The position numbers were made by a program, and so were the translations under genes. Shown one piece after another: positions 17,651 to 21,606 of a DNA stretch of 40,729 nt. The number at the start of each line of letters is the position of its first letter. The first letter of the stretch is position 1. The DNA comes from Candidatus Magnetocorallium paracelense (lineage in GTDB: Bacteria; Nitrospirota; Thermodesulfovibrionia; Thermodesulfovibrionales; Magnetobacteriaceae). The notes below the pieces were generated by a model, which had not been told where the DNA came from, made no database searches, and was given only the letters and a program-made list of their open reading frames with translations. The stretch is taken from contig JAREWP010000052.1 of the NCBI GenBank assembly GCA_029001845.1, positions 1 through 40,729 of the forward strand. Reading direction: 5' to 3'.

Positions 17651-19144
17651 CTATACCCCGCCTCTTAAAACTTCCGGGTTTGTATGGGGTATGAACATGG
17701 CCGAGGGGAATTCACGCATAAAGTCGTTGTCTTCGTTCATCTCTTTATAGGTGATAATTCCGATTATTAATTCGATTTCTTGAAGTTTCGTTTTATCTTT
17801 AAGGAGCAATTCGGCCCCCAGGAGGGAAGTGTTTGTGATAAATCGGAACCTTTCGTCAGGAAGATCGGGCAGCATTCCCAGAGTCCTTGCATCTTCCATC
17901 TTAATACCGTTGCCCAGAGCGCCTGAGATGTAAAATCTTTCGATTTCGTGAAACTTTACTCCAACAGCCCCGGAAAGTACATAAAAAGCAGTAAACATAC
18001 CGGCCTTTGATCTGAGAAAATTCAGCACCTCTCTTTCACGAACAATCAATCTCTTTCCTGCTTCAGTAAAGAACTCAAAGTACTTTTCATTCTCTCCTGC
18101 CAGGACACCTGTCTTATTTGTGTCAAGCCTCCCGTTCTTATCAATTATCCCGCTTCTGAACATCTCGGCGATCAGGCTCACCATGCCTGATGCGCAAAAT
18201 CCCGTTGGCCCGGTATGCCCGATGGTCTTTAAAATTACTTCAAAAGATTCACTCTCTATCTTCACCTCACAAACAGATCCTTCCGTTGCCTTTTCCCCAA
18301 TATCCGCAATTCCTTCCTCAAGCGCCGGGCCGGCGGCTCCGGAACCTGCGATAATCCATTCCTCTGTACCTATAACCATCTCTGCATTTGTACCTACATC
18401 GATAAGAACGGCAGGTACTTTCATTGTATGTATGCCTGTGGCAAGGATTCCCGATATTATATCTCCGCCTACATATGTTCCGGCATTGGGGAACAAATAG
18501 ATAACGCCATTTGGATTAATTTCTATTCCCAAGTCAACAGGATTTTGAAATCCAGGATTATGAGTTACTGGTACGTAAGGTTCCACAGGTAAAAAGTCTA
18601 CAGGGAAGCCCATTAAAAGATGAGTCATTACTGTGTTGCAGGAGATTGTCATTGCAGCGATGTCTCCCCTTTGACACTCTGACTCGCTACAGAGGATTTG
18701 TATCAGCTCATTTATCGATGCAATGAGACATAAATTAAGCTCTTCCACGCCATTAAGCATGGCAAAGTGCATCCTTGTTAAGAGGTCCGGTCCAAACTCT
18801 CTTTGAGGATTAACGATCCCGCACTGAGACACCATTACACCGGATTCCAAATCCAACAATCTTCCTATAATGTTTGTAGTGCCAATATCGAGAGCGATTC
18901 CGGTTATCCTTTCAGGAAGAAAAGAAACGATTCTGTATGAGCTTTCGGTTTTGCAAATCGCCAGAGTCAGAGAATAATCGTTTTCTCTGAGTACTTGAGG
19001 CAGGCTTTTTATTAGGGGAAGAGGAATTTCAAGGTTTTTATAATTCAGTGAGGAAAAGAGGCGCTCTTTATCCGCTGTTTTGTCCAGGGAAGAGGGTGGT
19101 GAAAGGCTTACAGAGTCTCTCCGGACCAGTGGTTTCATTGGCAT
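17651..19144 (-). CDS. ASKHA-domain reductive activator of corrinoid proteins, lacking the ferredoxin domain (RACo-like)
   Basis: 497 residues. Linker motif SLSPPSSLDKTADKERL at residues 12-28 and LPQVLRENDYSLTLAI near 48 match the segment that follows the [2Fe-2S] domain in RACo proteins. From residue 82 comes the ATPase domain: IALDIGTTNIIGRLLDLESG, NPQREFGPDLLTRM, and the glycine-rich ILIDVGTNAEMVIG and AGSGAAGPALEEG segments of the RACo C-terminal domain. RACo uses ATP to reduce inactive Co(II) corrinoid proteins of methyltransferase systems such as the Wood-Ljungdahl pathway. The expected N-terminal ferredoxin of about 90 residues is absent, so electrons must come from a separate protein. 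No methyltransferase gene lies nearby. Confidence 0.85.
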   Translation of the reverse strand: MPMKPLVRRDSVSLSPPSSLDKTADKERLFSSLNYKNLEIPLPLIKSLPQVLRENDYSLTLAICKTESSYRIVSFLPERITGIALDIGTTNIIGRLLDLESGVMVSQCGIVNPQREFGPDLLTRMHFAMLNGVEELNLCLIASINELIQILCSESECQRGDIAAMTISCNTVMTHLLMGFPVDFLPVEPYVPVTHNPGFQNPVDLGIEINPNGVIYLFPNAGTYVGGDIISGILATGIHTMKVPAVLIDVGTNAEMVIGTEEWIIAGSGAAGPALEEGIADIGEKATEGSVCEVKIESESFEVILKTIGHTGPTGFCASGMVSLIAEMFRSGIIDKNGRLDTNKTGVLAGENEKYFEFFTEAGKRLIVREREVLNFLRSKAGMFTAFYVLSGAVGVKFHEIERFYISGALGNGIKMEDARTLGMLPDLPDERFRFITNTSLLGAELLLKDKTKLQEIELIIGIITYKEMNEDNDFMREFPSAMFIPHTNPEVLRGGV

Positions 19145-19597: not shown

Positions 19598-21109
19598 ATG
19601 TCACATGAGAAACCTTTGGATATTTTGTTTATAAATCCCCCCTACGAAAGATTAAAGGGATTTTCCCTGGGCAGTATTCCTAACGGATTGCTGGGGCTGG
19701 CCACTCATATAAGTAAATCCGGTTATCATGCAGTTGTATATGACGCCGATACGAATACAGAAGACGGATTGCTCACATACAACAACAAAAACAGAGCCGA
19801 AAGTCAGGGGCAATATGCAAAAAGAATCGATGACGATACATTTTATGTATGGCGGGAAATTAGTGAAACAATCTCAAGACTAAATCCTCGTTTTGTAGGA
19901 GTCTCGTTAATGACCCCGACATTGCACTCAGGATTAAAAATCGCCTCTATAGCCAAATCACTGGATAAGACCGTACTGATCGGAGGACCTCACGTCAATA
20001 TAGTAGGAGAGAAAATTATTGGTCTTTACAGGGATGTGGATTTTATTTTTTTCGGAGAGAGCGAATACACAATAATGTATTTTTTAAAAGCCTTTCCCCA
20101 TTACGAAAAATTAAAAACAATAAAGGGATTGGCCTTTAAAAGAAATGGTGATTTCACTTTCAATGGTTACGCTGAACGTATAAAAGACCTCGATCTCCTC
20201 CCTTTCCCTGACAGGGGCCTTCTGATTTACAGGGAAAGGTATGCTAAAAATACTTTGGCAACAATTATAGCCAGTCGGGGATGTCCTTTTAAATGCGATT
20301 TTTGCGCATCTGTCCCCATATGGGGCAGAAAAGCGGTTTTTCGTTCGCCTGAGCATATTGTCGCGGAAATAAAGGACTTACATGACAGATATCACATAAA
20401 GGAGTTTAAATTTTTTGACGATACCTTTACGATCGTAAAAAAGAATGTAATAGAGTTTTGCAGGCAGCTGACAGCGGCCTATGGCGAGAAATATTTTTCA
20501 TGGCTCTGCCTCAGCCATATAACCACCCTTAACGATGAGGTTATTTATTGGTTGAAAAAAGCAGGCTGCAGACAAATTCACCTTGGCGTAGAAACAGGAA
20601 GCGAAAAAGTTGTAAAACTTATCCATAAAGGGATAAAATTAAGCGATGTCGAAAAAGCCGTAAAACTCGTAAAAAAACACAACCTCTGGGTTCATACTTT
20701 TTTTATGATCGGCATACCCTATGAAACAGAGCAGGATATGGACGACACAATCGATTTTATAAAGAAAATAAAACCCGATTCCGTCAACTTATGCACCTTC
20801 ACGCCATATCCGGGAACGGAGTTATATTCATATTGCGTCGAAAAGGGATTACTGAAACATGACGACAATTATGAAATATTTAAGCATATAGGTCATCACA
20901 GTACGGAAAATTTCTTCCTTGAAAACGTTTCCAAAGAGACTTATCGAATTAAGCTGAAAGAAATCCTTGAAGTCACAACAGCCATGACCAACTCTGTGAC
21001 ATCGAGAAAATTAATATACCGGATAAACACCCTTACATTGGAAAAAGTTGTAAAAAAAATAGAATTTATTTTTAGAAAAATCAGGATCCGTTTTGACAGG
21101 GACCTGTGA
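19598..21109 (+). CDS. B12-binding-domain radical SAM protein
   Basis: 503 residues. A cobalamin-binding-like Rossmann domain (about 8-150: LDILFINPPYERLKG, FVGVSLMTPTLHSGL, KTVLIGGPHVNIVG, VDFIFFGESEYTI) precedes a radical SAM barrel with the cluster motif ASRGCPFKCDFC (CxxxCxxC, about residue 225-235). Further barrel motifs are FFDDTFTI, HLGVETGSEKVVKLIHKGI and LCTFTPYPGTELY. Members of this class methylate or rearrange unactivated carbons (lipids, hopanoids, chlorin precursors, natural products). The substrate cannot be deduced. Its stop codon overlaps the start of the TlpA-like selenoprotein gene, so the two are likely made together. Confidence 0.9.
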   Translation: MSHEKPLDILFINPPYERLKGFSLGSIPNGLLGLATHISKSGYHAVVYDADTNTEDGLLTYNNKNRAESQGQYAKRIDDDTFYVWREISETISRLNPRFVGVSLMTPTLHSGLKIASIAKSLDKTVLIGGPHVNIVGEKIIGLYRDVDFIFFGESEYTIMYFLKAFPHYEKLKTIKGLAFKRNGDFTFNGYAERIKDLDLLPFPDRGLLIYRERYAKNTLATIIASRGCPFKCDFCASVPIWGRKAVFRSPEHIVAEIKDLHDRYHIKEFKFFDDTFTIVKKNVIEFCRQLTAAYGEKYFSWLCLSHITTLNDEVIYWLKKAGCRQIHLGVETGSEKVVKLIHKGIKLSDVEKAVKLVKKHNLWVHTFFMIGIPYETEQDMDDTIDFIKKIKPDSVNLCTFTPYPGTELYSYCVEKGLLKHDDNYEIFKHIGHHSTENFFLENVSKETYRIKLKEILEVTTAMTNSVTSRKLIYRINTLTLEKVVKKIEFIFRKIRIRFDRDL

Positions 21110-21606
21110 GGAGAGTTATTTTGTCTAACATTATTAAATCAACGACTGTTTTTCTGTTTTTACTTCTGACCGTCATCAACTGTACTGCAGAGACAGGTCA
21201 CAAAGCTCCCGATTTCAAAGGAACCACTTTAGAAGGCAGGGAGATTACCTATGAATCTCAACTTAAAGGCAAGAAATCTGTTTACCTTATATTCTGGGCT
21301 TCGTGGTGACCATATTGCAGAGACGAACTTCCCCGTGTGGAGAAGCTGCATAGAAAATTTAAAAATAAAATTGAATTTATAGGTGTCAATGTCGCTATAA
21401 ACGAAAGCGTTAAAAAAGCGAAAAGATATGTGAAAAAACTGAACCTCACGTTCCCCAACATTTATGACCAAAACAACTCAGTTTTAACTTCATATAGAGT
21501 GGCAGGCACACCGGCCTTTTTTATATTAGATAAAGAAGGCGTAATCAGACATAAAGGCATATATGCCCCTGATAATATAGAAAACATTTTGAAAAGGCTG
21601 CCCTAA
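21106..21606 (+). CDS. TlpA-like thioredoxin, probable selenoprotein (TGA at 21307-21309 read as Sec)
   Basis: About 166 residues if the in-frame TGA is read through. Order: N-terminal signal/anchor (TTVFLFLLLTVINC), the GHKAPDFKGTTLEGREITYE AhpC/TlpA start, then the active site FWASW-TGA-PYCRDELPRVE, EFIGVNVAIN, and the cis-proline loop VAGTPAFFILDKEG. In relatives the TGA position is the first Cys of WCPYC, so selenocysteine gives a UxxC redox site. The frame stays open for 98 codons after the TGA with perfect thioredoxin-fold sequence, and a hairpin follows the TGA. It would act in the periplasm or on the outer face of the membrane. The start is either GTG 21106, overlapping the radical SAM stop, or TTG 21121, which has GAGGAG seven bases upstream and is perhaps preferred. 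Confidence 0.88.
21310..21350 (+). promoter_or_regulatory. Candidate bacterial SECIS element
   Basis: Directly after the TGA: lower stem TGCAG (21316-21320) with CTGCA (21346-21350), a seven-base left bulge, and upper stem CTTC (21328-21331) with GAAG (21342-21345) extended by CC/GG around one bulged A. The apical loop CGTGT (21334-21338) has G in its second position. The loop begins 24 nt after the TGA, inside the range described for bacterial SECIS elements. SelB would bind here to insert selenocysteine. Folding was done by eye. Confidence 0.6.

Follow-up and report, generated by a model that had tools for sequence, protein, structure and literature searches.

The window, i.e. the whole stretch of 40,729 nucleotides that was analysed, contains a thioredoxin-fold gene with an in-frame TGA, which raises the question whether this codon ends a broken gene or is read as selenocysteine (Sec). 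An earlier note, made from the sequence alone, had proposed the latter. The TGA is the only stop inside a frame that closes with TAA at 21604-21606 and, as listed in Table 1, it occupies the active site. In the motif FWASW-U-PYC, it takes the codon of the first CxxC Cys, while the rest of the gene is intact. Read through, the protein scores 91.2 bits against the Pfam model AhpC-TSA (cut-off 26), in whose alignment the TGA falls on the first Cys of CxxC, and 86.5 bits against Redoxin (cut-off 26.6). With a score above the gathering cut-off of AhpC-TSA and a UPYC motif, it falls among the PF00578 UxxC proteins (Prx-like thiol:disulfide oxidoreductases). Both the frame reading and the Pfam alignment agree with the earlier note on the position of the TGA and on a frame running intact to 21606. 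The start given there, GTG at 21106, is less likely than TTG at 21121, since a Shine-Dalgarno-like GAGGAG, read directly at 21109-21114, lies ahead of the latter. The GTG overlaps the stop codon of the upstream radical SAM gene.

Table 1. Features of the locus, with positions given in the window.
Feature	Position	Strand	Remarks
B12-binding/radical SAM gene, upstream	19598-21109	+	Ends 11 nt ahead of the TTG start
Predicted selenoprotein gene, 161-aa ResA/TlpA-like thioredoxin-fold protein	21121-21606	+	TTG start, TAA stop; alternative start GTG at 21106
Candidate signal peptide, lipoprotein-like, MSNIIKSTTVFLFLLLTVIN then C	21121-21183, Cys codon included	+	Read from the translation
In-frame TGA, predicted Sec that opens the UPYC active site	21307-21309	+	Frame, Pfam alignment, orthologue column
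TGC, putative resolving Cys of UPYC	21316-21318	+	Translation; invariant among orthologues
Predicted bSECIS hairpin CTTC-C-CC-GTGT-GG-A-GAAG, loop GTGT at 21335-21338	21328-21345	+	26 nt after the TGA

The upstream B12-binding/radical SAM gene is probably co-transcribed with the predicted selenoprotein gene. The neighbours within the window (radical SAM, P-type ATPase) give no functional hint. Nearby on the opposite strand, 17651-19144 encodes a RACo-type corrinoid reductive activator with the linker, middle and C-terminal domains of RACo. The remaining TGA-joined frames of the window, viewed by eye, show no motif resembling that of the UPYC gene.

The motif FWAxWU..C was found in 15 of the 176 genomes of the order, with a reversed-pattern control yielding 0. 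A profile search of 175 genomes of the order gave 12 orthologues at E <= 4.1e-54, with paralogues appearing only from about 1e-29, and these 12 form a clade (support 100/99). At the active-site column, ten orthologues have TGA and two (in genomes G021 and G162) have TGC, encoding Cys; the two Cys members are nested inside the TGA members (support 96/92). The window gene thus carries an in-frame UGA where homologues have Cys, a selenoprotein trait. The TGA-bearing orthologues span several families of the order. Homologues are intact rather than decayed, the G145 copy alone breaking off early. Among 396 sampled genomes of the phylum, members of the subfamily occur only in this order, and a plasmid search returned only ordinary homologues with less than 60% identity. 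The orthologues are scattered (12/175 genomes); therefore, their role may be dispensable or specialised. Two side observations concern single parts of the clade. The homology of the G145 copy ends after FPNIFDRDKK, reflecting a frameshift by decay or an assembly error. In one branch, represented by four loci, the cis-Pro of the thioredoxin fold is apparently replaced (IETN/IQTN).

The SECIS-like hairpin with a G in its loop, which the earlier note placed 24 nt downstream of the TGA, is present, the distance being 26 nt. On its own, the window hairpin proves little. Its stability is unremarkable (z -0.8 to -1.4), a mechanical bSECIS-like test was passed by 10% of 2174 background TGAs, and Rfam searches (gathering and e-value) returned nothing relevant at the window locus. 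Because of the weak z-scores and the background pass rate, comparative evidence rather than hairpin stability was used as proof. The same hairpin, CTTCCCCGTGTGGAGAAG, is kept at the same distance from the TGA in nine of the ten TGA orthologues. In these nine, despite only 49-56% nucleotide identity to the window gene over its whole length, synonymous identity over the six hairpin codons is 0.96, compared to 0.44 elsewhere in the gene, and 0 of 100,000 permutations reached a hairpin codon identity as high. Both-sided changes are seen in three hairpin pairs, two of them within the core stem (G161, G145), against 0 or 1 in slid controls. The tenth TGA gene (G082) has a similar hairpin, CTTCC-CGTGT-GGAAG, in another frame, coding PVWK instead of PRVEK. 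As for the two Cys orthologues, both are without the hairpin and have CTTCCCCAGATTGAGGAA and TTCCCCCTGGTCGAAGAT at that place. The UGA is hence closely followed on its 3' side by a hairpin with a small, G-containing apical loop that is under selection, again a selenoprotein trait. Since the Cys orthologues lost this hairpin and nest inside the TGA clade, Sec appears to have reverted to Cys.

A pseudogene, or a TGA that stands for TGC or TGT through a fault of sequencing or assembly, can practically be dismissed: the TGA is one base away from either Cys codon and the G145 copy does break off, but ten of the 12 orthologues, drawn from several families, have TGA in the same column, the frame is otherwise intact, synonymous-site conservation is restricted to the hairpin, and the hairpin is lost with Cys. 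This rules out a chance nonsense mutation, which the earlier note had called much less likely than Sec, as well as a misread codon.

The genome of the organism (6.0 Mb, 99.6% complete) contains the Sec machinery that the earlier note had proposed to look for, namely selA (613 bits), selB (363 bits), selD (338 bits) and tRNA-Sec(UCA) (74.6 bits), the last also called by ARAGORN with anticodon tca. The selD gene carries its own in-frame TGA (2749-2751 of its locus) at the usual catalytic Sec site, LARTCG-U-AAKLG, with a strong hairpin. All 12 orthologue genomes have selA, including both with a Cys form, and machinery loss as the cause of the Cys forms was therefore rejected.

It is very improbable that Sec is not involved and that the UGA is instead decoded as a different amino acid or terminates a short functional product. 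Read-through of UGA as Trp occurs in some bacteria. However, homologues have Cys and not Trp at this column, the full Sec machinery is in the genome, and the SelB-type hairpin is lost exactly where Cys returns. UGA acts as a stop in this genome, since the radical SAM gene upstream has TGA as its own stop codon (21107-21109).

We are highly confident that the gene encodes a ResA/TlpA-type thiol-disulfide oxidoreductase of the envelope, membrane-anchored and containing Sec, with the UGA decoded via the hairpin. During translation, SelB and Sec-tRNA(UCA) would bind the hairpin just downstream of the UGA, and Sec would be inserted instead of termination, giving the U-P-Y-C active site. Outside the cytoplasm, the Sec selenolate might then act as the nucleophile, attacking and reducing disulfides (or other oxidised substrates), with a mixed selenenylsulfide being formed and the second Cys resolving it. 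Re-reduction may be carried out by a CcdA/DsbD-type membrane protein. As the basis is fold and family, we infer a periplasmic or envelope reductase role, presumably fed by CcdA/DsbD. In line with this reading, DsbD/CcdA genes are direct neighbours of the orthologue in genomes G082 and G145, G150 has a homologue of one of these genes, and the organism's own genome encodes two DsbD_TM proteins, which are located elsewhere.

The AlphaFold2 model (pLDDT 87.5) has ResA as its best structural match (4nmu, TM up to 0.87), with 28-32% identity to ResA structures, and a sequence search also puts ResA nearest among solved structures. Its thioredoxin fold matches solved ResA/TlpA structures; the label ‘TlpA-like’ used by the earlier note holds if taken broadly, ResA being the closest relative of known structure. 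Fold, membrane-anchored N-terminus and CxxC position are as in ResA (4nmu, 1st9, 3c71), whereas the window protein has Sec for Cys and UPYC for the CEPC active-site motif of ResA. The N-terminal helix is hydrophobic in the model, and the lipobox VINC is imperfect by eye.

A Sec protein with a dedicated job, e.g. cytochrome c maturation (as ResA) or sulfur/selenium handling, instead of a general envelope reductase, is possible but rather doubtful. The proximity to ResA among solved structures would fit such a job, as would the surroundings of the gene in relatives, where a recurring set (six loci) comprises DsbD/CcdA, LolA-like, MMPL, YeeE/YedE-type sulfur transport, rhodanese and methyltransferase genes. 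However, the window copy lies outside this gene set, and the scores against the NCBIfam models for ResA (NF002854; 93.3 bits, cut-off 170) and DsbE (55.6 bits, cut-off 123) are too low.

A Sargasso Sea study of 2005 (PMC1088965) described UxxC selenoproteins of the Prx-like and thiol-disulfide isomerase-like kinds, and later reviews (PMC9312934, PMC13188914) list them. With these Prx-like/Redoxin/thiol-disulfide isomerase-like proteins (PF00578, PF08534, cd02966), the window protein shares Pfam families, the UxxC motif, Sec at the first Cys and a downstream bSECIS. Compared by description only, the window subfamily differs in having its own SECIS and in having been seen in only one order of the sampled phylum. 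The WAxxUGC ResA-like selenoprotein (NF041054) also combines a ResA-like fold with Sec in a WAxxU context, but the window protein has UPYC instead of the UGC spacing and scores 47 bits (cut-off 300). The scores against two further NCBIfam selenoprotein models, NF053656 and NF045694, are likewise below the curated cut-off.

Two other groups of the same order have a thioredoxin fold with TGA at the first active-site Cys, like the window protein, but stand outside its orthologue clade in the tree and have different hairpins. The FWASWUDTC group (one member with FWAPWUDTC) occurs in six genomes of one family, with the TGA at 1516 on the coding strand (352 at one locus). The FWATWUSWC group (two loci), also with the TGA at 1516, has a longer N-terminal part.

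The general kind, i.e. UxxC Prx-like/TlpA-like thiol:disulfide oxidoreductases, has thus been known since 2005, while the small bacterial subfamily is unnamed. In literature naming both Nitrospirota and selenoproteins, nothing on this selenoprotein subfamily was found. A Sec-to-Cys change leaving SECIS-like remnants has been illustrated earlier (PMC1794560). With moderate confidence, we regard the orthologues as a selenoprotein subfamily without a name, from an order where at least three separate ResA/TlpA-like groups have Sec, and the Cys forms as a natural reversion from Sec, with the hairpin decaying while the machinery was kept. Standard annotation would cut the genes of the subfamily short at the TGA, and they stay below the cut-offs of the NCBIfam models. 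In the clade, Sec orthologues that have a working SECIS can be matched with Cys orthologues that lack one, and such pairs would be useful for learning why an envelope thiol-disulfide enzyme keeps Sec and how Sec gets lost.
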